Of a DNA stretch of 64,000 bases, positions 4,010-60,700 are shown piece after piece. How positions within the stretch are numbered: position 1 is the stretch's first letter; each line of letters starts with the position of its first letter. The stretch comes from Saccopteryx bilineata. Taxonomy: Eukaryota > Chordata > Mammalia > Chiroptera > Emballonuridae. The translations under genes were made by a program, and so were the position numbers. The stretch covers positions 63,092,410-63,156,409 of the forward strand of contig NC_089495.1 of the NCBI RefSeq assembly GCF_036850765.1, given 5' to 3'. The notes beneath the pieces were generated by a model. It had not been told where the DNA came from. It did no database searches and saw only the letters and a program-made list of their open reading frames with translations.

Positions 4010-4510
4010 GTTCACTTTGTTAAAAATGGCTCTGCCCATGTGAATGACACTGCCAGGTGATACTGCTAATTACATTCCTGCTTGGGAAGGGGTTTTGTTA
4101 TGCTAATGTTTGCTGGATGAGGGTTTTAGTGCCCAAAAGTTTTAAGAAGAAGAAGGAAGAGGAAGGAGGCCATGTTTTCACAGAATGAGAGCACGGAGGA
4201 AGAGTGCTGGAGAGAAAGAAGCCATCTTGGCAGATGGGAACCAGAGGGATGAAGGGCTTTGTGAACTCTGCTGAGAATGGTGGGGCCTTTCATTCTATGA
4301 AAAAATGGAAAAGATTCTCCTGGTTGTGGAACCGGAGAATGTGTGAGTGAGTTTTGGTGCCCTGTGTGTTTGTGTTTACTCACCAGCCGGTTGTAAGGCT
4401 AGAATAAAGGGATGGCCCACCATTTATTTGCTTCACTGTTTCTTTATCATTTGTCTGAATCTAATGAGAAACTGCAGCTGAATGACTATGATGGTCATGG
4501 CTACTAACCA
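4010..4510 (+). repeat. LTR of family A, diverged subfamily
   Basis: It starts TGTTCACTTTGTTAAAAATGG and shares with the LTR at 47095 the opening block through CTGCCCATG. Its 3' half shares the family-A blocks: CCATCTTGGCAG, a GAATAAAGGGATGGCCCACCA segment containing AATAAA, and the end motif ATGGTCATGGCTACT. It lacks the TGTTGGTCAAATAAG start seen at 36728, so a subfamily with a different U3 is likely. No internal retroviral sequence is attached, which is consistent with a solo LTR. The exact right boundary is uncertain by about 10 bases. Confidence 0.65.
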
Positions 4511-4534
4511 TAAACAAATATATTACCCTTGGTG

Positions 4535-4579
4535 GCCATCTGTATTAGGTTTCTATTATTGAACTAAGAAATCACTAGC

Positions 4580-4625
<46 letters not shown>

Positions 4626-5160
4626 AGAGAGAGAAAAGAAAAAAATAAAAAGAAATCACTACCAACTTGGTGGCTTACAATAACATCCATTCATCATCTC
4701 ACAATTTTTGTGAGTCAGAAGTCTAGACACAGAGATTCACTTACTTCCCCTATTTTGAGTTTTACAAGATCAAAATTAAAGTGTTAAGAGTGTTGCCGTT
4801 TCCTTTTGTGGCTGAGGGAAAAATACAGTTTTAGGTTTTCAGGGTATTGGGTAGATTCAGCCCCATGTTTTCACTGACTGTTGGCCTGTGCCTGGCTTTG
4901 CTTCTAGTTGTGTTATTACAGTATCATGGCAGATTCACTCACTGGTTGCCTGGGTCACATGCACCTTCTCCATCATCTCAGTTTGGGTATCCCAAAATTA
5001 GTCATATAACCTGCCACAGCTCATGACATTCAGGAGGTATAGAGAAGCTCAATTTAAAATATTTTCCACTTATAAAAAACTATAATTCTGAAACTATAGT
5101 ATGAAACTCCCTCTGATGTTGCATTCTCATGAATGTTTCATGTGTTAATAAGCTATTTCC
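4535..5160 (-). repeat. Old MaLR-like (MLT1-type) LTR, antisense
   Basis: The plus strand reads like the reverse complement of a mammalian MaLR LTR: TGTATTAGGTTTCTATTATTG, then CTTGGTGGCTTACAATAACA and CTCACAATTTTTGTGAGTCAGAAG. It is split by a (TA)n microsatellite. The family name is from memory of the consensus; the right boundary is vague. Confidence 0.45.
4582..4623. repeat. (TA)n microsatellite
   Basis: About 21 uninterrupted TA units lie within the old LTR and are followed by a GAGAGAGA stretch. Confidence 0.95.
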
Positions 5161-15007: not shown

Positions 15008-15049
15008 AATACTATTCTAACCAATACCAGTTCAAAAACGTATGCTTTT

Positions 15050-15257
15050 CCTGACCAGATGGTGGTGCAGTGGATAGAGCATTGGACTAGGATGTGGAGG
15101 ATCCAGGTTTGAGACCCCAAGGTCGCCAGCTTGAGCGTGGGGCTCATCTAGTTTGAGCAAAGCTCACCAGGTTGCTGGCTCGAACAAGGGGTTACTCGGT
15201 CTGCTGTAGCCCCATGGTCAAAGCACATATGAGAAAGCAATCAATGAACAACTAAGG
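15050..15257 (+). repeat. Long-form SINE, left part (split by hAT element)
   Basis: Head CCTGACCAGATGGTGGTGCAG with B-box-like GGTTTGAGACC, running to CAATGAACAACTAAGG. The same SINE resumes at 16963 after the inserted transposon. Flanking copies of AAAACGTATGCTTTT-like sequence (about 15035-15049 and 17066-17080) are the SINE's own TSD, slightly diverged. Confidence 0.9.
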
Positions 15258-15783
15258 CAGTGGTTCTCAACCTTTCTAATGCCGTGACCCCACAATACAG
15301 TTCCTCATGTTGTGGTGACCCCAAACCAAAAAATAATTTTGGTGGCTACTTCATAACTGTAATTTTGCTACAGTTATGATACGGAATGTAAATACCTGAT
15401 ATGCATTATGTATTCTCATTGCTACAAATCAAACATAATTTAAACATAGTGATTAATCACAAAAACAATATTTAATTATATATTGAGAAATATTTATTAC
15501 TAATGGCCCTCCTTACCTAGTGTATTGGGGCTACCATTCCGTAAATAGCTGCTTAACTAATGGATCTGTTTTAAACAGATTAGTAGCAAGTTTTCTATAT
15601 AGAACAGTGTGAACTACGTCATAGGATACACTGCAGTTTCTGCACAGCATGGTATCTTTCAGGGCTCTTTCACACTATAAAGCAGTGGTTTCTGTGGTGG
15701 AATCCACATCTCATTTACTTCAATGGGAGACCCGTGGATTCTGCAGAAGAGAGATCCCCTGTACAGCAGAAATGCAGTTCCAA

Positions 15784-16127
15784 CACATTTCTTCCTCTCC
15801 TATTCAAGTTAATGGGAGGCCACAGCAGATTCCGCTCAAATATAGAGCATATTGCTTAATTTTTTCCACGCTAGAACTTTTCCTAGAGCAGCCCCGCCAC
15901 CCCCAATAGACTTCTATAGGAGGCAGATCTTTTACACTGCAGAATCCGCACAGCAGATTCCTCAGTGTGAGGCCTTTTTTAGTCTATTGGGGGTGGCGAA
16001 TTCCACCTTTGGAATTTTTCTGTTCTAGGAAAAGTTCTAGCGTGGAAAAAATTAAGTAACATGCTCTATATTTGAGCGGAATCTGCTGCGGCCTCCAATT
16101 AACTTGAATAGGAGAGGAAGAAATGTG
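15784..16127. repeat. Long imperfect palindrome inside the hAT element
   Basis: The left arm (about 15784-15911) and right arm (about 15981-16127) are reverse complements over most of their length. Examples are TCCACGCTAGAACTTTTCC against GGAAAAGTTCTAGCGTGGA, and CCACCCCCAATAGACT against AGTCTATTGGGGGTGG. The loop is about 70 bp. The right arm has a ~20-bp insertion near 16000. Confidence 0.9.
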
Positions 16128-16352
16128 TCAGAAACTGTCATTTCTCGGCCTCTTATTGAAATCAAAAGGAGGCTGCGGCGGATTGTGTGGTAACCCGAGA
16201 TTCTCGGGAGCTCTCTTCCACAAAATCCGCCGCACTCCCAATGAAATCAATAGGAGGCGGATTCAATGCCGGAAACCACTGATTTCAGCAGTTTCCTCAT
16301 TCAGAACATGGGAAAATAGTGGGAGATATGGGAGATAATTATACATTGGGGA

Positions 16353-16414
16353 ACAGTGTGAACTACATCTTATAGTGGTCTCTTATAGTATAAGACTGAT
16401 GTAGTTCACACTGT
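16353..16414. repeat. Short hairpin (17-bp arms) within the hAT element
   Basis: ACAGTGTGAACTACATC (16353-16369) is exactly inverted at 16398-16414. A third, direct copy (ACAGTGTGAACTACGTC) sits at 15604-15620, so this motif could mark the ends of a nested element of about 0.8 kb. Confidence 0.85.
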
Positions 16415-16962
16415 GTAAATGTATGGTGCTTTGTGTAAGTATAAGCTGCTTTGTGTACTGGGTAATGATTACACACAAAGCACCTTACACTTACACAGTA
16501 TTGTGTGTATGGTGTGTGTACTGTTTTTACATTATTAACCTTTTTTACACCAGCAGGCTGTCCCGCAGGCTCTCTTGGCTCTCCGCCTCTTGCCTCTCTG
16601 CCTCCTAGGCTTCTGTCCTCCGGCGCTTGCTGCACCCGCCCACTGATGACGTCAGCAAGCGCCGAACACACGTGATGCGCTGCTGCTATGGACTGTGGAG
16701 TGTTCCCTGCCCCACTTCCCCCGCCCCTTAGGCCCCAGACGGATGATGCAATCACGTCTGCGCATGACCACAGGCATTCAGTTTGGAACGCACATCCATA
16801 ACAGCGTGCGTTCAAGCTGAATAGCGCTGCTGCAGACGGTAGCATGGCTTCTCAGCGACTAAAGCCATCGGAAATATGTATTTTCCGATGGCTTTAGGTG
16901 ACCCCTGTGTTTTGGTCATTCAACCCCTGCCAGGGTCACAACTCACAGGCTGAGAACTGTTG

Positions 16963-17068
16963 GACTAAGGTGTCACAATGAAAAACTAATGATTGATGCT
17001 TCTCATCTCTCTCCGTTCCTGTCTATCCCTCTCTTTGACTCTCTCTCTGTCTCTGTAAAAACAAACAA
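16963..17068 (+). repeat. Long-form SINE, right part
   Basis: Continuation of the SINE started at 15050: GACTAAGGTGTCACAATG, GATTGATGCTTCTCATCTCTC, a CT-rich run and an A-rich tail. Confidence 0.9.
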
Positions 17069-18396: not shown

Positions 18397-20798
18397 GGAT
18401 TTGGAGGATGACGTCAGAGTAATGGCGGAGTAGGAAGCGATACCGATAAATCTCCCCCAAAACTCAATAAGATCTTCAACCAGAAACAGAAAAACCTATA
18501 CTTGGAGCCTCCAGATGCTTCACAATACACCCGAAGGTATGGTCGAGTGAAAAATTGGCTAAATATATAACCAAATCCTGAAGGAAATAGGGAGTAAGAA
18601 ATGCTCCGCCTTCCTCACTAACCTAAACAGGGCGGCTTTCTCTGGTAACTGTGAATATAGAAACTGAGGCGGGCAAAGGGGGTGAATACATCCAGGCCGC
18701 GCACAAAAGGCCGAACCAGGCTGTGGCACGGAGATCCTAGCAGAGGAAAAACTGTTCCTGTGGAAGCCGGGCAATACAAGCTAACACTCGCGCAAAACCC
18801 AAACAAAGAAAGACAAGCGGGGCAGCCATTTTACCCGTTCTCCTGGTTGGTGCGCAGTTAGTGGGCGAGAGATCTCTTCCTAAGCCCCAGAAGTGGGTGT
18901 CCGTGTTGCCCCACAGAGAGGCAGGGTCAGAGGCCTTTCTGTGGGCCGAAAGCAGAATCTCTGGGCAGCCCCAGCGCCCTGGGAAAGCCGCGCATGGGAG
19001 GGAGCGAGAACTAATTCCAACAGTGGAAATTTTCCGTGCTGGTGAGGGTTTCACTCAGGGAAACGCGGCCGGCCTCATATCCTGGTTTGCGCGCGCAGAT
19101 AGGTAGTGAGCGATTCCTCCGAGTGCCTCGGCAGGGCGCGCCTGTGTTATCGCACAGAGGGGCAGAGTCAGGGGCCTTTGTGTGGGCAAAAGCGGAATCT
19201 CGGGCCGCCCCAGCGCCTTGCAAAAGCCGCGCATGGGGACAGAGCGAGAGCGAATTCCAGCGCTGCAAATTTCCATGCGGTTGGGGGTTTCACTCAGAGT
19301 GTGAGACTACTGGCCGGATATCCTGGTCTGCGCGCGCAGATAGTGAATGAGAGTTTCCTCCAAGCACCCCGGAAGTGGGTGCCTGCCTGTGTTACCGGAC
19401 AGAGTGGCAGAGCCAGAGGTCTTTGAGTGGGTGGAAAGCCCGCCTGATTATGCTAGCAGCTCTGACTGACTGAGCCTTACCCAGAGCCCTGTGCTGAGTG
19501 GAAATAGAGTGGGGAGTTGCCAGCTCTTTGAACCTCTTACTATCCAGGCAGAGGCAGCAACAACCCCATAGCTGGATTATCAGGCTACTAATTGAGGAAG
19601 GAAAGACTAGGAGAAAGGCTCCAGGAACACGGACTCTCTCACTGTCGGAGCCTATGAAAGCTAATGAGCCTTGACTCCCAACGAGACTAAAGCACAATAC
19701 ATGACATTGCCATAGAGACTTATCAACTGCAAACCTCTACCTGAGCGTGCCAAAGGGGCAGAACCTGGGGTACAGAGTCACCGACCAGGAAGAGGGAGAG
19801 AAAAGAAAAAACAAGAAAATAACCTCTCAAAATCAAGAATAATCTGCAGACTTTATAACCTATCCCATTTTATTATATTTGTTCATTTGTTTCTCTTATC
19901 TTCATTCTTGATACTTTTTTTCCTCCTCCAATTTGGCCGATTAACTCTCTGCCGGTCTTACTCTCTCTTCTCCTTGAACTACACTACCCATAAGTGTTAC
20001 ATCTCCCATTATCTTTTTTCTCCTCTTCCTTTCTCTCTATGAGGGTTGCACTCCAAAACCCTTAACTCTCTCTCTCTCCTTTCTTTTTTCTTCTTTTAGT
20101 AGTTCCCTCTTTTTTTCTCTCTCTCTCTTTCTTTTCTCCATCTATATTAGTTTCTTCCTTTCTCCTTTACATCTCCTCTCATTCAAACCTCAATAACAAA
20201 CAAATTATCTTATCTGGGACTCAAACTTATGTTTGTGGCATTTTGGGGGGTTTTTACTTCACCTTTTTAACTCACTAGCAGTGCTCCCATCCCTGGCTCT
20301 CCATTTTATCTAGTTCTTGTTCCACTAAATACAATAGTATTTTTTTAATTTGTCCCCCCATTTTTCTGTTCTCTTATTCCTCTCATCATAACTCTTAGAC
20401 AACACCAACACCTAAAAGCAAATAATTTTATTCTTGACCCAAATTTTTTCCTTATTTGCTTTTTGTGGGTCCATACCGCCCCCCCCCTTTTTTTTTTCCT
20501 TTTTTTTTCTTTTATTTTTTTTTTTGCCCCTTTATTACTTTTCCCCAATTCAGGCCCTCCATCACAGGCATTGTTTGTTATAATTCACAGTTCACCACAA
20601 GATTTTCTCAAGAAAAAGGGGAGAGGAGAGGAAAAAAGGAGGGGGGGAATAATTTCCTTTTTTTAAAAATTATTATTTTATTTTTCTTTATTTCATTATT
20701 AATTTTTTAAAAAAAAACAACTCTTTTTGATTTTTTATTTTTTTAACTTTTTATTCTTTATTAAATCTCATTAATACTATCAACAAAACCACCCTCAG
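18397..20798 (+). promoter_or_regulatory. L1-A 5'UTR / internal promoter region
   Basis: This GC-rich, CpG-dense 5' region (18600-19450) stands out in an otherwise AT-rich window, as expected for a LINE-1 internal RNA polymerase II promoter. A perfect CRE-like TGACGTCA lies at 18409-18416, and a YY1-like AATGGCGG at 18421-18428 sits near the first base, a position where human L1 also has a YY1 site. The second half (19860-20800) is pyrimidine-rich with long T/C tracts. It is followed by the ORF1 start at 20799. Confidence 0.75.
18841..19440 (+). repeat. Tandem ~240-bp monomers in L1-A 5'UTR
   Basis: Units start at TCCTGGTTGGTGCGCAG (18841), TCCTGGTTTGCGCGCGCAG (19080) and TCCTGGTCTGCGCGCGCAG (19321), giving periods of 239 and 241 bp. 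Each carries a GCACAGAGGGGCAGAGTC-like block, a GCCCCAGCGCC block and GGTTTCACTCAG. The third unit is partial, ending near 19440. The same array is present in reverse orientation at 53370-53945. Confidence 0.9.
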
Positions 20799-21919
20799 AT
20801 GCCATTAAGGAAGAGAAAATCGAATATCATGGATACAAAAGAAAGAGAGGTAACACAGCTAGATGAGGAAAAATCTATGGAGAAAAAATTTAATATATTG
20901 GAAACCTTGGAGCTAAATGACAGAGAATTCAAGATAGAAATCCTAAAAATCCTCCGAGATATACAAGAAAACACAGAAAGGCAATTTAGGGAGCTCAGAA
21001 AACAACTCAATGAACACAAAGAATATATGTCCAAAGAAATTGAAACTATAAAAACAAATCAAACAGAGATGAAAAACTCAATTCACGAGCTAAAAACGAA
21101 GTAACAAGCTTAGCTAATAGAACAGGTCAGATAGAAGAGAGGATTAGTGAAATAGAAGACAAGCAACTTGAGGCACAACAGAGAGAAGAAGAAAGAGACT
21201 CAAAAATTAAAAAAAATGAGATAGCCCTACAAGAATTATCTGACTCCATCAAAAAGAATAACATAAGAATAATAGGTATATCAGAGGGAGAAGAGAGAGA
21301 AAATGGAATGGAGAACATACTCAAACAAATACTAGATGAGAACTTCCCAAGCCTGTGGAAAGAACTAAAGCCTCAAATTCAAGAAGCAAACAGAACACCG
21401 AGTTTTCTTAACCCCAACAAACCTACTCCAAGGCATATCATAATGAAATTGACACAAACCAACAGCAAAGAAAAAATTCTCAAGGCAGCCAGGGAAAAGA
21501 AGAATACAACATATAAAGGAAGGCCCATTAGATTATCATCAGATTTCTCAGCAGAAACTCTACAAGCTAGAAGAGAGTGGACCCCAATATTTAAAGTCCT
21601 GAAAGAGAGAAACTTTCAGCCATGAATACTATACCCATCAAAGCTATCCTTCAAATATGAAGGAGAAATAAAAACATTCACAGATACAGAAAAGATGAGG
21701 GAATTTATCATCAGAAAACCCCCACTCCAGGAATTACTAAAGGGGGTTCTCCAATCAGATACAAAGAACAAAAAAAAAAACAGAGCCACAAGTAAAAGCT
21801 CCAGGAAGAACACAATAAAACCAAATTTAAACTGTGACAACAACAAAAAGAAAGAGGGGGAAAAGATGGAGATTAACAGTAGCAAAGGACGATGGAGTGC
21901 AAAAGTACTCACAAAATAG
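20799..21919 (+). pseudogene. L1-A ORF1 (RNA-binding chaperone), broken
   Basis: ORF1p of LINE-1 is the trimeric nucleic-acid chaperone that coats L1 RNA. The first frame, 20799-21104 (101 codons, start MPLRKRKSN), is Lys/Glu-rich with heptad-like leucines (coiled coil) and ends ELKTK-stop. The protein continues in another frame (about 21097-21625) through the rest of the coiled coil, an RRM-type block (NNIRIIGISEGE) and a C-terminal block (PRHIIMKLTQTNSKEKILKAAREK, with SADFxAETLQARR-like sequence). The shift is explained by a run of five A's at 21092-21096 where six would keep the frame. A TGA at 21623-21625 (Arg CGA in L1-C) then interrupts the C-terminal region, which stays open to 21919. 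The same frameshift occurs in L1-C. Confidence 0.9.
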
Positions 21920-22121
21920 TTTGCTACAATGAACAGGGTAGGGACCCTTTTCATTACTCAAAGGTAACCACCATTGAAAAAACCACCACAGAAGCACATG
22001 AGATAAAAAAGATAGCAACAGAGGAAAGATGTATGGAATACAACCAAATAAAAACAAAAGATAGAAAAACGAAAGAGAAGGATCAAACAAGACACAAAAC
22101 TAACAGAAAGCAAGATATAAA

Positions 22122-25100
22122 ATGGCAATAGGGAACTTACAAGTATCAATAATTACACTAAATGTAAACGGATTAAACTCACCAATAAAAAGGCACAGAG
22201 TAGCAGAATGGATTAAAAAAGAAAATCCAACTATATGCTGCCTACAGGAAACTCATCTAAGTAACAAGGATAAAAACAAATTCAAAGTGAAAGGCTGGAA
22301 AACAATACTCCAAGCAAATAACATCCAAAAAAAAGCAGGTGTAGCAATACTCATATCGGATAATGCTGACTACAAGACAGGAAAAGTACTGAGAGATAAA
22401 AATGGCCATTTCATAATGGCTAAGGGGACACTGAATCAAGAAGACATAACAATTCTTAATATATATGCACCAAACCAAGGAGCACCAAAATATATAAGAC
22501 AGCTACTTATTGACCTTAAAACAAAAACTGACAAAAATACAATCATACTTGGAGACCTCAATACACCGCTGACGGCTCTAGATCGGTCATCCAAACAGAG
22601 AATCAACAAAGACATAGTGGCCTTAAACAAAACACTAGAGCACCTGGATATGATAAACATCTACAGGACATTTCATCCCAAAGTGACTGAGTATACATTT
22701 TTCTCCAGTGTACATGGATCATTCTCAAGAATTGACCATATGTTGGGCCACAAAAACAACATCAGCAAATTCAGAAAAATTGAAGTTGTACCAAGCATAT
22801 TTTCTGATCATAAAGCCTTGAAACTAGAATTCAACTGCAAAAAAGAGGAAAAAAATCCCACAAAAATGTGGAAACTAAACAACATACTTTTAAAAAATGA
22901 ATGGGTCAAAGAAGAAATAAGTGCAGAGATCAAAAGATTTATACAGACTAATGAAAATGACAATACGACATATCAGAATCTATGGCATGCAGCAAAAGCA
23001 GTGATAAGAGGGAAATTCATATCACTTCAGGCATATATGAACAAACAAGAGAGAGCCCAAGTGAACCACTTAACTTCCCACCTTAAGGAACTAGAAAAAG
23101 AAGAACAAAGACAACCCAAAAGCAGCCGAAGAAAAGAGATAATAAAAATCAGAGCAGAAATAAATGAATTAGAGAACAGAAAAACTATAGAAAAAATTAA
23201 TAGAACAAGGAGCTGGTTCTTTGAAAAGATCAATAAAATTGACAAACCCTTGGCAAGACTTACCAAGGAAAAAAGAGAAAGAACTCATATAAACAAAATC
23301 CAAAATGAAAGAGGAGAAATCACCACGGACATCGTAGATATACAAAGAATTATTGTAGAATACTATGAAAAACTTTATACCACTAAATTCAACAACCTAG
23401 AAGAAATGGATAAATTCCTAGAACTTAACCTTCCTAGACTGAGTCAAGAAGAAGCAGAAAGCCTAAACAGACCTATCAGTAGAGAAGAAATAGAAAAAAC
23501 CATTAAAAACCTCCCCAAAAATAAAAGTCCAGGCCCTGACGGCTATACCAGCAAATTTTATCAAACATTCAAAGAAGAGTTGGTTCCTATTCTACTCAAA
23601 GTCTTCCAAAAAATTGAAGAAGAACAATACTTCCAAACACATTTTATGAGGCCAACATAACCCTCATACCAAAACCAGGCAAGGATGGCACAAAAAAAGA
23701 AAACTACAGACCAATATCTCTAATGAATACAGATGCTAAAATATTAAACAAAATACTAGCAAATCGAATACAACAACATATTAAAAAAATAATACATCAT
23801 GATCAAGTGGGATTCATCCCAGAATCTCAAGGATGGTTCAACATACGTAAAACGGTTAACGTAATACACCATATCAACAAAACAAAGAACAAAAACCACA
23901 TGATCTTATCAATAGTTGCAGAAAAGGCTTTCGATAAAATACAACACAATTTTATGTTTAAGACTCTCAACAAAATGGGTATAGAAGGAAAATATCTCAA
24001 CATGATAAAGGCCATATATGATAAACCATCAGCTAACATCATATTAAATGGCACTAAACTGAAGGCTTTCCCCCTTAAATCAGGAACAAGACAGGGTTGT
24101 CCACTCTCTCCACTCTTATTTAATGTGGTAGTAGAGGTTCTCGCCACAGCAATCAGACAAGACAAAGAAATAAAAGGCATCCATATCGGAAAAGAAGAAG
24201 TAAAGGTATCACTTTTTGCAGATGATATGATCCTATACATCGAAAACCCCAAAGAATCCACAAAAAGACTACTAGAAACAATAAGCCAATACAGTAAGGT
24301 CGCAGGGTACAAAATTAACATTCAGAAGTCAATAGCCTTTCTATATGCCAACAATGAAACAACTGAGAAGGAACTCAAAAGAATAATCCCCTTCACGATT
24401 GCAACAAAAAAAATAAAATACTTAGGAATAAACATAACAAAGAATGTAAAGGACTTATATAATGAAAACTATAAACCATTGTTAAGGGAAATTGAAAAAG
24501 ATATAATGATATGGAAGAATATACCTTGTTCTTGGCTAGGAAGAATAAATATAATCAAGATGGCTATATTACCCAAAGCAATATACAAATTCAATGCAAT
24601 TCCCATCAAACTTCTAATGACGTTTTTTAAAGAAATAGAGCAGAAAATCATCAGATTTATATGGAACTATAAAAAACCCCGAATAGCCAAAGCAATCCTA
24701 AAGAAAAAGAATGAAGCTGGGGGCATTACAATACCTGACTTCAAACTCTATTATAGGGCCACGACAATCAAAACAGCATGGTATTGGCAGAAAAATAGAC
24801 ACTCAGACCAATGGAACAGAATAGAAAGTCCAGAAATAAAACCACATATATATAGTCAAATAATTTTTGATAAAGGGGCCAACAACACACAATGGAGAAA
24901 AGAAAGCCTCTTCAATAAATGGTGCTGGGAAAACTGGAAAGCCACATGCAAAAGAATGAAACTGGACTACAGTTTGTCCCCCTGTACTAAAATTAACTCA
25001 AAATGGATCAAAGATCTAAACATAAGACCTGAAACAATTAAGTACATAGAAGAAGACATAGGTACTCAACTCATGGACCTGGGTTTTAAAGAGCATTTTA

Positions 25101-25945
25101 TGAATTTGACTCCAATGGCAAGAGAAGTGAAGGCAAAAATTAATGAATGGGACTACATCAGACTAAGAAGTTTTTGCTCAGCAAGAGAAACTGATAACAA
25201 AATAAACAGAAAGCCAACTAAATGGGAAATGATATTTTCAAACAACAGCTCAGATAAGGGCCTAATATCCAAAATATACAAAGAACTCATAAAACTCAAC
25301 AACAAACAAACAAACAATCCAATAAAAAAATGGGAAGAGGATATGAACAGACACTTCTCCCAGGAAGAAATACAAATGGCCAACAGATATATGAAAAGAT
25401 GCTCATCTTCTTTAGCTATTAGAGAAATGCAAATCAAAACAGCAATGAGATACCACCTCACACCTGTTCGATTAGCTATTATTAGCAAGACAGGTAATAG
25501 CAAATGTTGGAGAGGCTGTGGAGAAAAAGGAACCCTCATCCACTGTTGGTGGGAATGTAAAGTAGTACAACCATTATGGAAGAAAGTATGGTGGTTCCTC
25601 AAAAAACTGAAAATAGAACTACCTTATGACCCAGCAATCCCTCTACTGGGTATATACCCCAAAAACTCAGAAACATTGATACGTAAAGACACATGCAGCC
25701 CCATGTTTATTGCAGCATTGTTCACAGTGGCCAGGATATGGAAACAACCAAAAAGCCCGTCAATAGATGACTGGATAAAGAAGATGTGGCACATATACAC
25801 TATGGAATACTACTCAGCCATAAGAAATGATGACATCGGAACATTTACAGCAAAATGGTGGGATCTAGATAACATGATACGAAGCGAAATAAGTAAATCA
25901 GAAAAAACCAGGAACTGCATTATTCCATACGTAGGTGGGACATAA
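22122..25945 (+). pseudogene. L1-A ORF2 (endonuclease/reverse transcriptase), one frameshift
   Basis: ORF2p nicks target DNA and reverse-transcribes L1 RNA at the nick. The first frame (22122-23660, 512 codons) holds an APE-type endonuclease with the key residues in place: Asn14 in TLNVNG, Glu43 in LQETH, the Asp/Asn pair of GDLNTPL and the C-terminal SDHKAL. A single missing base in the CAATAC run near 23625-23630 shifts the frame; the protein resumes from about 23631 to 25945. The reverse transcriptase has RQGCPLSP and FADD (24215-24226), but the first catalytic aspartate motif, normally SIDAEKAFD, reads SIVAEKAFD (GTT at 23915-23917). A Cys-rich C-terminal motif ([18 protein letters not shown]) is intact. 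No purifying constraint is visible since insertion. Confidence 0.95.
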
Positions 25946-27199: not shown

Positions 27200-28165
27200 C
27201 AACCCCCACTTTACCATAGAATAATGGATCTGGATCCTGGGAACTTCCTTACCAAAGGAAAAAGAACCTACATGGTCATTGCTGGACTTAGCACCTTGTG
27301 TGAGAATATCTTTTCTGTTTCAGTCATGAATACTTTGTTGTTCTGGTTATGCTTGAATGTCAATGGGCCTCAATATGCTCCCAGATTTCACTATTTTAGA
27401 CTCCACAAGGATGAATTGGGGTCCTTCCATGGCAGCAAAAGATGGTTTTACATAGGCCAATTGTGCTCGGCCACCCACATACAGAGGCCTGCTGGCCATC
27501 GGGAAGCTATGTGCCTTGTTAAAACTGATCTTATTCTGTCCATTTTAGTTGTAAGTAAAACGTTGTTCCACCCAGTGTTTTTTTTGTTTGTTTGTTTGTT
27601 TGTTTTTGTTTTGTTTTTTTTTCATTTTTTCTGAAGCTGGAAACAGGGAGAGACAGTCAGACAGACTCCCGCATGCGCCCGACCGGGATCCACCCAGCAC
27701 GCCCACCATGGGGCAACGCTCTGCCCACCGGGGGGCGATGCTCTGCCCATCCTGGGGGTCGCCATGTTGCGACCAGAGCCACTCTAGCACCTGAGGCAGA
27801 GGCCACAGAGCCATCCCCAGTGCCCGGGCCATCTTTGCTCCAATGGAGCCTTGGCTGCGGGAGGGGAAGAGAGAGACAGAGAGGAAAGCACGGCGGAGGG
27901 GTGGAGAAGCAAATGGGCGCTTCTCCTGTGTGCCCTGGCCGGGAATCGAACCCGGGTCCTCCGCACGCTAGGCCAACGCTCTACCGCTGAGCCAACCGGC
28001 CAGGGCCTCCACCCAGTGTTTTATTGTGCTGTTTTACCTGATGACTCTAATACCAAAATATAATGGGCAGACATGTTTGGACTTCTTTTCCTGGTGGTTG
28101 GCATCATGATGATCTTTGCTATTCTCTATATGGAGTCCTACCTTGGAATAAAAAACTAGTGCATG
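27200..28165 (+). pseudogene. Possible unidentified retropseudogene, interrupted by a SINE
   Basis: Not recognised. An open stretch starts at 27224 (MDLDPGNFLTKGK) and runs about 115 codons to the SINE insertion at 27582. After the SINE, a stop-interrupted hydrophobic stretch (FGLLFLVVGIMMIFAILY, about 28075-28130) ends in a stop codon at 28157-28159 followed by an AT-rich tail. The content resembles a spliced message for a small membrane protein, but I could match it to no family. A decayed retroelement is an alternative. Confidence 0.25.
27582..28007 (-). repeat. tRNA-derived SINE (GGCCAGGGC type), young copy, antisense
   Basis: The minus strand reads GCCCTGGCCGGTTGGCTCAGCGG, an intact A box, GGGTTCGATTCCCGGCC (B box), then a ~250-bp body to GTTTCCAGCTTCAGAAAAAATG and an A-rich tail (oligo-T/TTTG on the plus strand). 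An exact 15-bp TSD, TCCACCCAGTGTTTT, lies at 27567-27581 and 28008-28022. It is nearly identical to the copy at 34333. Long open frames within it are shadows of the GC-rich body. Confidence 0.95.
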
Positions 28166-34332: not shown

Positions 34333-34735
34333 GCCCTGGCCGGTTGGCTCAGCGGTAGAGCGTCGGCCTAGCGTGCGGAGGACCCGGGTTCGATTCCCGG
34401 CCAGGGCACACAGGAGAAGCGCCCATTTGCTTCTCCACCCCTCCGCCGTGCTTTCCTCTCTGTCTCTCTCTTCCCCTCCCGCAGCCAAGGCTCCATTGGA
34501 GCAGAGATGGCCCGGGCGCTGGGGATGGCTCTGTGGCCTCTGCCTCAGGCGCTAGAGTGGCTCTGGTCGCAATATGGCGACGCCCAGGATGGGCAGAGCA
34601 TCGCCCCCTGGTGGGCAGAGCGTCACCCCTGGTGGGCGTGCCGGGTGGATCCCGGTCGGGCGCATGTGGGAGTCTGTCTGACTGTCTCTCCCCGTTTCCA
34701 GCTTCAGAAAAATGAAAAAATGAAAAAAAAAAAAA
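34333..34735 (+). repeat. GGCCAGGGC-type SINE, young, inside the mariner
   Basis: Intact A box (GGTTGGCTCAGCGG) and B box (GGTTCGATTCC), a GC-rich body and a poly(A) tail. An exact 16-bp TSD, AAGACTAATGTGAATC, lies at 34317-34332 and about 34736-34751. It is nearly identical to the copy at 27582, suggesting recent activity of this family. Confidence 0.97.
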
Positions 34736-40742: not shown

Positions 40743-40760
40743 AAAGAATTGTGTTTATTT

Positions 40761-42157
40761 ATATAATCAAAATGGCCATATTACCCAAAGCAATATACAA
40801 ATTTAATGCAATTCTCATCAAAATTCCTATGAGATTTTTTAAAGAAATGGAACAAAAAATCATCAGATTTATATGGAACTATAAAAAACCCCGAATAGCC
40901 AAAACAATCCTAAGGAAAAAGAATGAAGTTGGGGGCATTACAATACCTGACTTTAAACTATATTATAGGGCCACGATAATCAAAACAGCATGGTATTGGC
41001 AGAAAAATAGACACTCAGACCAATGGAACAGAATAGAAAGCCCAGAAATAAAACCACATATATATGGTCAAATAATCTTTGATAAAGGGGCCAACAACAC
41101 ACAATGGAGAAAAGAAAGCCTCTTCAACAAATGGTGTTGAGAAAACTAGAAAGCCACATGCAAAAGAATGAAACTCGACTACAGCCTGTCCCTGTGTACT
41201 AAAATTAATTCAAAATGGATCAAAGACCTAAATATAAGACCTGAAACAATAAAGTACATAGAAGAAGACATAGGTACTAAAATCATGGACCTGGGTTTTA
41301 AAGAACATTTTATGAACTTGACTCCAATGGCAAGAGAAGTGAAGGCAAAGATAAATGAATGGGACTACATCAGAATAAAAAGTTTTTGCTCAGCAAGAGA
41401 AACTGATATCAAAATAAACAGACAGCCAACTAAATGGGAAATGATATTTTCAAACAACAGCTCAGATAAGGGCCTAATATCCAAAATTTACAAAGAACTC
41501 ATAAAACTCAACAACAAACACACAAACAATCCAATAAAAAAATGGGAAGAGGACATGAACAGACACTTCTCCCAGGAAGAAATACAAATGACCAACAGAT
41601 ATATGAAAAGGTGCTCAGCTTCATTAGTTATTAGAGAAATGCAAATCAAAACTACAATGAGATACCACCTCACCCCTGTTAGATTAGCTATTATCAACAA
41701 GACGGGTAATAGCAAATGTTGGAGAGGCTGTGGAGAAAAAGGAACCCTCATTCACTGTTGGTGGGACTGTAAAGTAGTACAACCATTATGGAGGAAAGTA
41801 TGGTGGTTCCTCAAAAAACTGCAAATAGAACTACCTTATGACCCAGCAATCCCTCTACTGGGTATATACCCCAAAACCTCAGAAACATTGATACGTAAAG
41901 ACACATGTAGCCCCATGTTCATTGCAGCACTGTTCACAGTGGCCAAGACATGGAAACAACCAAAAAGCCCTTCAATAGAAGACCGGATAAAGAAGATGTG
42001 GCACATATACACTATGGAATACTACTCAGCCATAAGAAATGATGACATCAGATCATTTACAGCCAAATGGTGGGATCTTGATAACATTATACGGAGTGAA
42101 ATAAGTAAATCAGAAAAAAACAAGAACTATATGATTCCATACATTGGTGGAACATAA
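40761..42157 (+). pseudogene. L1-B ORF2 C-terminal fragment
   Basis: About 465 codons in a single frame interrupted by two nonsense codons, TGA at 41138-41140 and TAG 9 bases on, both at positions that are Trp (TGG) in L1-A. The Cys-rich [18 protein letters not shown] motif is present. There is no reverse-transcriptase active site. Confidence 0.93.
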
Positions 42158-43091: not shown

Positions 43092-43138
43092 TGTTGGTCA
43101 AATAAGTTTCTAAGTATGATATATATGTTTGCTCGCTT

Positions 43139-43666
43139 GTGATTGCTGGATGGGTGAGAGATTGGGCAACTAAACCACATAGTGGTATGGCCCAAATGTC
43201 TACCCTGGCCAAGTGGGGTGCCTATCTGCAACAACGCTGTGCTCTTAGCACCAGCCCATTGAGGGCAGAACTGCAGGAAGTCTTGGGTCCAGTCACCTAT
43301 GCGACCTTAGAGTCAGGTGCAACTGGGGCTCAGGAGGCAGAACCTGAGGTCAGTCCCTACCAGGAGGGGCGGGTGCCCATCCCCAAAGATGCCTGGTATA
43401 CTGATGGTTCCAGCAGGGGCCAACCTGCCAAATGGATGGCTATCGCCTTCCATCTGGCCACTGAGACTATTTGGATGGACACGGGTACAGGCCAAAGCAG
43501 CCAATGGGCAGAATTAAGAGCTGTTTGGCTAGTTGCCCATAATGAACCTTCACCTCTGGTGCCAGCTACGGTGCTGTCTGCAGACAAAACTCTGGCCTGT
43601 ATTCTGCCAGAGGGAAAAGATTTGCCTCTCTTGGTGCCACTGACAGCTCTCTCATTTCACCCATAG
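43139..43666 (+). pseudogene. Retroviral pol fragment with RNase H domain
   Basis: A 175-codon open frame. After a short leader from the deletion junction, about residues 20-80 resemble the reverse-transcriptase connection region of retroviral pol. A ribonuclease H core follows: AWYTDGSSRG (first catalytic Asp) and SSQWAELRAVWLVAH (catalytic Glu). RNase H degrades the RNA of RNA-DNA hybrids during reverse transcription. The frame then leaves pol-like sequence near residue 145 and ends at 43664-43666, so the rest of RNase H and integrase are missing. The domain is incomplete and presumably inactive. Its link to the LTRs shows the pol type used by this ERV family. Confidence 0.85.
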
Positions 43667-49357: not shown

Positions 49358-49711
49358 TTATTTTATTTTTTGAATTTTTCTGAAGTTGGAAACAGGGAGG
49401 CAGTCAGACAGACTCCCACATGTGCCCGACCAGGATCCACCTGGCATGCCCACCAGGGGGTGTTGCTCTGTTGCAACCAGAGCCATTCTAACAACTAAGG
49501 CAGAGGCCATAGAGCCATCCTCAGCACCCGGGCCAACTTTGCTCCAATGGAGCCTCGGCTGCGGGAGGCGAAGAGAGAGACAGAGAGGAGGGAGAGGGGA
49601 AGGGGGGGAGGAGCAGATGGGCACTTCGCCTGTGTGACCTGGCCGGGAATCAAACCTGGGACTCTTGCACACCAGGCCGATGCTCTACCACTGAGCCAAC
49701 AGGCCAGGGCT
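49358..49711 (-). repeat. GGCCAGGGC-type SINE, antisense, with 14-bp TSD
   Basis: Same body as 27582, with a shorter middle (one CACCAGGGGG unit fewer). The exact duplication TACAAATTTAAATT is at 49344-49357 and 49712-49725. Confidence 0.95.
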
Positions 49712-50974: not shown

Positions 50975-51969
50975 TTACTTGTGGCTCTGTTTTTTTTTGT
51001 TCTTTGTATCTGATTGGAGAACCCCCTTTAGTAATTCCTGGAGTGGGGGTTTTCTGATGATAAATTCCCTCATCTTTTCTGTATCTGTGAATGTTTTTAT
51101 TTCTCCTTCATATTTGAAGGATAGCTTTGATGGGTATAGTATTCGTGGCTGAAAGTTCATCTCCTTCAGGACTTTAAATATTGGGGTCTACTGTCTTCTA
51201 GCTTGTAGAGTTTCTGCTGAGAAATCTGATGATAATCTAATGGGCCTTCCTTTATATGTTGTGTTCTTCTTTTCCCTGGCTGCCTTGAGAATTTTTTCTT
51301 TGCTGTTGGTTTGTGTCAATTTCATTATGATATGCCTTGGAGTAGGTTTGTTGGGGTTAAGAAAACTTGGAGTTCTGTTTGCTTCTTGAACTTGAGGCTT
51401 TAGTTCTTTCCACAGGCTTGGGAAGTTCTCATCTATTATTTGTTTGAGTATGTTCTCCATTCCATTTTCTCTCTCTTCTCCCTCTGATATACCTATTATT
51501 CTTATGTTATTCTTTTTGATGGAGTCAGATAATTCTTGTAGGGCTATCTCATTTTTTTTAATTTTTGAGTCTCTTTCTTCTTCTCTCTGTTGTGCCTCAA
51601 GTTGCTTGTCTTCTATTTCACTAATCCTCTCTTCTATCTGACCTGTTCTATTAGCTAAGCTTGTTACTTCGTTTTTAGCTCGTGAATTGAGTTTTTCATC
51701 TCTGTTTGATTTGTTTTTATAGTTTCAATTTCCTTGGACATATATTCTTTGTGTTCATTGAGTTGTTTTCTGAGCTCCCTAAATTGCCTTTCTGTGTGTT
51801 CTTGTATATCTCGGAGGATTTTTAGGATTTCTATCTTAAATTCTCTGTCATTTAGCTCCAAGGTTTCCAATATATTAAATTTTTTCTCCATAGATTTTTC
51901 CTCATCTAGCTGTGTTACCTCTCTTTCTTTTGTATCCATGATATTCGATTTTCTCTTCCTTAATGGCAT
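50975..51969 (-). pseudogene. L1-C ORF1 (RNA-binding chaperone), broken
   Basis: Read on the minus strand. 51664-51969 (101 codons) is nearly identical to the first frame of L1-A ORF1 and ends with the same ELKTK-stop. The remainder is in another frame: 51188-51460 is open after MENILKQI, with a TAG at 51188-51190 where L1-A has TGG. Then 50975-51160 encodes the C-terminal part (PRILYPSKLSFKYEGEIKTF) that is cut by a nonsense codon in L1-A. The coiled coil, RRM block and C-terminal domain are all recognisable. The shared frameshift and the private nonsense codons show that the shift predates both insertions. Confidence 0.9.
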
Positions 51970-59383: not shown

Positions 59384-60700
59384 CTAACATTTGCTATTAC
59401 CTGTCTTGTAAATAATAGCTAATCTAACAGGTGTGAGGTGGTATCTCATTGCAGTTTCGATTTGCATTTCTCTAATAACTAAAGAAGATGAGCATCTTTT
59501 CATATATCTGTTGGCCATTTGTATTTCTTCCTGGGAGAAGTGTCTGTTCATGTCCTCTTCCCATTTTTTTATTGGATTGTTTGTTTGTTTGTTGTTGAGT
59601 TTTATGAGTTCTTTGTAAATTTTGGATATTAGGCCCTTATCTGAGCTGTCGTTTGAAAATATCATTTCCCATTTAGTTGGCTTTCTGTTTATTTTGTTAT
59701 CAGTTTCTCTTGCTGAGCAAAAACTTCTTAGTCTGATGTAGTCCCATTCATTAATTTTTGCCTTCACTTCTCTTGCCTTTGGAGTCAAGTTCATAAAATG
59801 CTCTTTAAAACCCAGGTCCATGCGTTGAGTACCTATGTCTTCTTCTATGTACTTAATTGTTTCAGGTCTTATGTTTAGATCTTTGATCCATTTTGAGTTA
59901 ATTTTAGTACAAGGGGACAAACTGTAGGCCAGTTTCATTCTTTTGCATGTGGCTTTCCAGTTTTGCCAGCACCATTTATTGAAGAGGCTTTCTTTTCTCC
60001 ATTGTGTGTTCTTGGCCCCTTTATCAAAAATTATTTGACTATATATATGTGGTTTTATTCCTGAACTTTCTATTTTGTTCCATTGGTCTGAGTATCTATT
60101 TTTCTGCCAATACCATGCTGTTTTGATTGTCGTGGCCTTATAATAGAGTTTGAAGTCAGGTATTGTAATGCCCCCAGCTTCATTCTTTTTCTTTAGGATT
60201 GCTTTGCCTATTTGGGGTTTTTTATATTTCCATATAAATCTGATGATTTTTTGCTCTATTTCTTTAAAAAATGTCATTGGAATTTTGATGGGAATTGCAT
60301 TAAATTTGTATATTGCCTTGGGTAATATAGCCATCTTGATTATATTTATTCTTCCTAACCAAGAACAAGGTATATTCTTCCATCTCATTATATCATTTTC
60401 AATTTCCCTTAACAATGGTTTATAGTTTTCATTATATAATTCCTTTACATTCTTTGTTATGTTTATTCCTAAGTATTTTATTTTTTTTGTTGCAAACATG
60501 AAGGGGATTATTCTTTTGAGTTCATTCTCAATTGTTTCATTGTTGGCATATAGAAAGGCTATTGACTTCTGTATGTTAATTTTGTATCCTGTGACCTTAC
60601 TGTATTCGCTTATTTTTTCTAGTAGTCTTTTTGTGGATTCTTTGGGGTTTTCGATGTACAGGATCATATCATCTGCAAAAAGTGATACCTTTACTTCTTC
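59384..60700 (-). pseudogene. L1-D ORF2 fragment, inverted part
   Basis: A 427-codon open frame without internal stops (59384-60667, extending upstream through FADD to 60700). It carries the FADDMILY motif with the last catalytic aspartates of reverse transcriptase, [20 protein letters not shown], and the end of the RT domain. The long uninterrupted frame points to a fairly recent insertion. The N-terminal endonuclease and the first catalytic aspartate are absent. Confidence 0.93.

Follow-up and report, generated by a model that had tools for sequence, protein, structure and literature searches.

A SPIN-like hAT family of the bat Saccopteryx bilineata whose palindromic interior probably represents the leader of its parent element

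Introduction

Canonical SPIN (SPACE INVADERS) elements are about 2.8 kb long, and Buster-type hAT elements leave target-site duplications (TSDs) of the pattern nnnTAnnn. Transfers of SPIN and of other hAT elements into bats are known (PMC4971623, PMC4298943, PMC5857283, PMC11614815, PMC11008031, PMC4054807, PMC9409754). Buster2 of insects and an evening bat resembles the family described here in being a hAT element with short non-autonomous forms that was transferred into a bat; unlike that of our family, its terminal inverted repeat (TIR) is given in the text of that report as CAGGGGTGGCCAACCT (PMC4298943). Similarly, hAT-6_XT of turtles, fishes and Xenopus is a hAT element transferred among vertebrates including a frog, but it bears another family name and the main text of its report does not mention bats (PMC11008031).

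The family described here shares with SPIN an 8-bp TSD with a TA core and transposase relatives of the ZBED5/ZBED8/FAM200 kind, and alignment of its consensus ends to a presumed SPIN MITE sequence gives identity in 126 of 141 columns at one end and 81 of 93 at the other, so that the ends are probably of SPIN type. It differs from SPIN in carrying a long palindromic leader and a CpG-rich block between the transposase and one end, and in the length of its long copy, L101, which exceeds that of canonical SPIN: L101 measures 6.2 kb, a figure to which two SINE insertions of about 0.39 kb and a 534-bp segment contribute. Closest by protein are transposases of the frogs Ranitomeya imitator (P0001) and Eleutherodactylus coqui (P0002), known here as proteins only, which are 91% identical over a 365-aa part and form one clade with the bat sequence. 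A literature search by sequence strings and by topics, judged from its listings, brought no paper on this family to our notice; we do not claim that it is absent from print, and it may already be catalogued somewhere. TIR-like strings do occur in some papers, which by their titles are unrelated.

We consider it highly probable that the element studied here is a non-autonomous copy of about 1.7 kb from a young SPIN-like hAT family, that its interior is the leader of the parent element, and that a transfer linked to frogs preceded the amplification of deletion derivatives.

Results

The window element interrupts a tRNA-type SINE

The stretch of Saccopteryx bilineata DNA that was analysed (the window) is 64,000 nucleotides long. 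Positions 15258-16962 hold a 1705-bp hAT-type element sitting inside a tRNA-type SINE, presumably of the VES family, whose left part lies at 15041-15257 and right part at 16971-17062, both on the plus strand; when the two flanks are joined, they align with four further SINE copies of the window. An earlier note, made from the letters alone, had placed the element at exactly these positions and had assigned it hAT/SPIN-type ends with an 8-bp TSD. The hAT-type ends and the TSD stand, and the ends are probably of SPIN type. The left TSD AACTAAGG (15250-15257) and the right TSD GACTAAGG (16963-16970) agree in seven of eight letters. Read across the four uninterrupted SINE copies, the empty site is AACTAAGG in three and AACTTAGG in the fourth, and thus the G of the right duplicate looks like a later change. 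The TIRs are CAGTGGTTCTCAACCT (15258-15273, plus strand) and, in reversed reading, CAACAGTTCTCAGCCT (16947-16962, minus strand), and in the family consensus they match at 15 of 16 positions.

The window also holds SINE copies of about 400 bp at 27609-28006, 34333-34729 and 49361-49710, with Rfam tRNA matches near 27931, 34338 and 49635. A nearly complete L1-like element lies at 21044-25945 with ORF1-like and ORF2-like frames, the second of which shifts frame near 23.6 kb and so falls into two parts, and more L1-like pieces lie at 40745-42157, 51188-51724 and 59384-60700. An open frame at 43106-43666 contains the stretch YTDGSSRGQPAKW, which we take to be RNase H-like and probably a retroviral remnant.

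A large palindrome, smaller hairpins and a CpG-rich block fill the interior

The interior is dominated by a palindrome, P1 (15602-16414; 813 bp including its outer arms), which was found by an inverted-repeat scan, shuffles and RNA folding and is also present in L101. The best inverted-repeat score of the palindrome is 94, whereas none of 35 other tiles of the window exceeds 21 and all 50 single-base shuffles score 0, and the predicted RNA fold of 15602-16414 reaches -440 kcal/mol versus -226 (sd 7.3) in 20 shuffles. The stem, previously estimated at about 125 bp, is real, but its length needs correcting: arms 15778-15891 and 16020-16133 pair along 114 bp at 94% complementarity, seven positions being mismatched, while the inner arms of the consensus form an exact 153-bp inverted repeat. 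In window coordinates the left inner arm, shorter in this copy, occupies 15778-15912 (consensus 521-673), the 68-nt loop 15913-15980, and the right inner arm 15981-16133 (consensus 742-894).

The smaller hairpins and the GC-rich block that had also been noticed in the interior were confirmed. A second hairpin, P2, lies at 16410-16499 and a further one at 16621-16664, and a perfect 16-bp hairpin common to family copies (16859-16897) adjoins the right end. The CpG-rich block (16541-16858, minus strand) has a GC content of 0.594 and a CpG o/e of 0.73, against 0.24 for the whole window, and its consensus reaches 0.94. It is not unique in the window, where the areas at about 18.9-19.1, 34.3 and 53.8 kb hold equal or higher CpG; a 241-bp unit repeated 2.2 times lies at 18903-19431, in an area where CpG density, taken over 318 bp, is the highest of the window. 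The strings TGACGTCA, CACGTG and CCCCGCCCC occur in the block and presumably mark a candidate promoter end. The block is probably the promoter end of the parent element.

An Rfam scan of the element returned eight matches at E up to 1, all under the gathering scores, seven of them to microRNA families on or around P2. Two interior ORFs had no match in the protein collection, and ATGGCTTCTCAGCGACTAAAG at 16843 was dropped as a protein start because half of it is an arm of the 16-bp hairpin.

The element belongs to a young mobile family

Searches of the bat's own genome covered the 2.61-Gb assembly in 256 contigs. The whole element gave at least 139 matching stretches and, besides the window, at least 26 places over 1.5 kb (best 40 of 2173 candidates scored); the palindrome gave at least 37 further near-full-length places (best 40 of 334 scored). 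Other probes, again with the best 40 scored each, gave 394 candidates for the GC block, 990 for the left 243 bp and 271 for the right 104 bp, numbers that are not copy counts. The family thus comprises dozens of near-full-length copies, most with their own 8-bp TSD around TA. Among 20 loci that the palindrome search added to those of the whole-element search, the left end was present in 20 and the right end, called at a score of at least 28 of 38, in 19 (L067 being the sole failure; a few places were left unfetched). The earlier note had envisaged a mobile family joining SPIN-like ends to a palindromic interior, and such a family exists: the possibility that no other copy joins the two is contradicted by many copies that carry both.

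Both ends were located in 50 of the 64 loci fetched. The TSD agreed in at least seven of eight letters in 40 of these, in all eight in 31 and in fewer than seven in 10, while a mispaired control, in which the left flank of one locus was set against the right flank of another, reached seven of eight in 40 of 2450 pairs. The 40 loci with good TSDs show T at position 4 in every case and A at position 5 in 38, which is the Buster-type pattern. The 8-bp TSD, the short TIRs and the hAT transposase of the autonomous-type relative L101 place the family in the hAT superfamily.

At non-CpG sites the mean distance of 42 full-length copies to the consensus is 1.70% K2P (sd 0.52%), a value that may lean young since the aligned copies are the best-scoring ones. 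Taking about 2.3e-9 substitutions per site and year as the neutral rate, this corresponds to a family age near 7 million years. CpG is abundant in the consensus (72 CpG, o/e 0.79), so the CpG poverty of the ends of the window element reflects decay since the family spread.

The palindrome is a site of instability, and many copies are broken, duplicated or fused to other DNA at the edges of the loop. Of 68 distinct loci, 42 aligned without a counted break, 19 had a break, duplication or truncation at the loop and seven had one elsewhere. Outside four copies of type B (see below), 24 of 45 breakpoints fell within 111 bp around the hairpin loop, of 1717 bp in all, although these are not all independent events: a single locus can contribute several, and subfamilies may have inherited some of them.

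A long copy places the interior upstream of a transposase gene

L101 is a 6.2-kb copy on contig C10 (44072800-44079100) with the TSD CCTTAAAA (8/8). Its order is the left 247 bp, a minus-strand transposase gene, more palindromic leader, the palindrome, a 534-bp segment, P2, the GC block and the right end. In detail, L101 91-337 equals consensus 1-247 at 98%, L101 3834-5173 (with a SINE at 4430-4824) equals consensus 242-1167, and L101 5708-6259 equals consensus 1163-1717. Hence the first 247 bp of the window element (15258-15504) correspond to the end downstream of the transposase gene, the ACTAAT at 15499-15504 marks the site of the missing gene, which ACTAAT flanks on both sides in L101, and 15505-16962 (minus strand, as the gene reads) correspond to the upstream leader region and the other end. 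The order of these parts and the microhomology junctions identify the window interior as the leader of the L101 layout. The non-autonomous status proposed for the window element is borne out, as it has the L101 layout minus the transposase.

The transposase gene of L101 is broken by one SINE inside it and by a frame change near the C part; a second SINE interrupts the palindrome. Both insertions, of about 0.39 kb, have their own flanking duplication and are related to the window copies at 27.6-28.0 and 34.3-34.7 kb. The 534-bp segment (L101 5174-5707) contains three 53-bp repeats and is missing from derivatives A and B, by an insertion in L101 or a shared loss, so that L101 is not the exact parent of these types.

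The ATG of L101 is preceded by a splice-acceptor-like stretch, TTTTATTTTTTCTTTAG, which raises the possibility that the leader is an intron downstream of a CpG-rich promoter. The leader also contains recurring units such as CTCCCATTGAGATCAATGGGA, which may resemble frog repeats. L101 1800-3830 (the N part of the transposase and DNA upstream of it) was matched in full only by itself (best 40 of 257 candidates scored), the other matches being an inverted self-match in L101 and, elsewhere, a piece of about 90 bp from the outer palindrome. The first 305 transposase residues had one 100% match in the genome, with the next relatives at 34-41% over the main stretch (129 of 6635 candidates scored). 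A second long copy was seen neither among these 40 DNA candidates nor among these 129 protein candidates, and the same 40 revealed no resident genomic source for the leader part outside the derivatives. Besides L101, the 128 other scored places encode hAT transposase-like proteins at 34-41% identity, many in open frames without stops and some of about 600 codons (for example C3:159919032-159919904, C3:176279218-176280093 and C29:118883-119749). These are other, possibly young, hAT families of the same genome.

Derivatives probably arose at short microhomologies, which argues against capture

Three kinds of derivative were distinguished. Type A is the window type, and its junction joins the ACTAAT at L101 332-337 to that at L101 3834-3839, a 6-bp microhomology. 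Type B (L086/L043, L044, L046 and L077) carries the left 247 bp, about 1 kb of transposase-like pieces in both orientations, and consensus 669 onward; its inner stretch occurs in at least 30 near-complete places (best 40 of 299 candidates scored), and at its junction, where transposase meets the loop edge, only AGA is common. Type C (L095, L097, L098 and L100; 530-540 bp) joins consensus 1-165 to about 1348 onward with TTGC common to both sides, retaining the ends and the GC block without the palindrome. Of ten loci selected through the right end it accounts for four, and L100 has an 8/8 TSD.

The earlier note had suggested that a SPIN-type derivative captured another element or foreign DNA; in this scenario a short SPIN MITE would have acquired unrelated palindromic DNA before its amplification. 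Type C, which lacks the palindrome but keeps the ends and the GC block, could be read as such a precursor, and an 11-of-12 direct repeat (15487-15498 and 16871-16882; reached in 11 of 2000 shuffles) flanks the interior. However, a captured interior should be absent from the autonomous relative, and L101 carries it, with the palindrome between the GC block and the transposase. Moreover, the derivative junctions are short microhomologies, and the TTGC of type C is what a deletion would leave. Once the L101 layout was read, the direct repeat was dropped as a TSD of the interior: each of its two copies is part of an end of the parent itself, and the interior is not a later insertion with a TSD of its own. 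Capture by a short SPIN MITE is therefore very unlikely, and it is superseded by the reading of the interior as the region upstream of the transposase gene.

The L101 transposase groups with two frogs

A 421-aa query from L101 matched 1808 proteins at E<=0.001 among 4481 candidates, of which 120 were listed (best E 1.7e-219), and the ORF matches ZBED5/ZBED8/FAM200/SCAND3-like proteins. Pfam matches of L101 were below the cut-off (PF05699, E 0.0014, in the C part; PF14291, E 0.016); those of P0001 and P0002 were likewise sub-threshold in our scan, with a precomputed PF14291 listed for both. Among the 120 listed proteins the closest were the two frog sequences, at 91% over about 87% of the query each. 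Over a similar span, Bufo bufo reached 84-85%, Protobothrops 85%, Myotis yumanensis 84% and Rana temporaria 81%; two partial proteins are not far behind the frogs, one from Hipposideros (88% over 54% of the query) and one from Crotalus (87% over 63%), so that by identity alone the lead of the frogs is not large.

The tree was built from 42 of the listed proteins and the 365-aa part of L101. It places L101 and the two frogs in one clade with support of 100/100, the order within the three being unsettled, and around it stand Myotis, Xenopus, Nycticebus, rodent and squamate rows. Constraining L101 to group with all eight bat rows was rejected (p-AU 0.000174). Since these rows do not group in the free tree, L101 was also held with four separate bat groups, named by host and chosen after the tree was seen (Myotis brandtii P0017 stood outside these tests), and each was rejected: Hipposideros (p 0.00123), Myotis P0008 (p 0.000719), Myotis P0016 with P0031 (p below 1e-100) and Cnephaeus with Eptesicus (p 0.00123).

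Because the transposase falls with the two frog sequences and apart from the bat transposases in the analysis, the comparison points to a fairly recent horizontal transfer linking frogs and this bat line, which could have been direct or through intermediates and in either direction. The earlier suggestion of horizontal transfer is thus upheld by the frog clade and the rejected bat constraints. An alternative is an ordinary bat SPIN inherited from the known vespertilionid event, and transfer of SPIN into vespertilionid bats is indeed reported (PMC5857283). Yet the frog grouping, the rejection of every tested bat grouping and a divergence of just 1.7% among the aligned copies speak against it, and we hold that origin to be highly unlikely. 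Frog DNA contaminating the assembly, which the single copy of the frog-like transposase might suggest, is practically untenable, as L101 has a TSD, is part of a contig of 82.7 Mb and contains two window-type SINEs, each with its own duplication, and its derivatives are spread over 14 contigs (C1-C13 and C90).

Other collections added little, as they hold almost no vertebrate DNA: five exact element patterns had no match in viral contigs, the inner-arm pattern none in the genome-contig collection, and the element none among plasmids and phages. Two pattern matches of P0001 to viral contigs were not confirmed, and a motif-pattern match in an Acidobacteria record (L001 of the genome-contig collection) was taken as chance.

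Discussion

On the reading that the window interior is the parent's leader, the palindrome and the CpG-rich block would have been part of the parent, as its leader and probable promoter end, rather than a later insertion. The horizontal transfer linked to frogs would have come first, and the deletion derivatives would have been amplified afterwards. Short copies would have been born by internal deletion or template switching at short microhomologies, and transposase from an L101-like parent, supplied in trans, would have mobilised them.

A fuller version of these events is more tentative, and we give it rather less than even credence. It holds that a single recent transfer from a frog brought the hAT element together with a frog-derived palindromic leader of a few kb, that one broken long copy survives, that many derivatives (candidates number 271 to 394) have spread the leader, and that the arms are long enough to yield dsRNA from the element's own promoter end.

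If the link to frogs holds, the family would record a datable transfer between frogs and a mammal in which a long copy survives beside its derivatives, and the non-coding leader could fingerprint the donor. The family shows the birth of deletion derivatives, a single layout having given rise to three kinds through short microhomologies, as well as the fate of a long palindrome in a mammalian genome.
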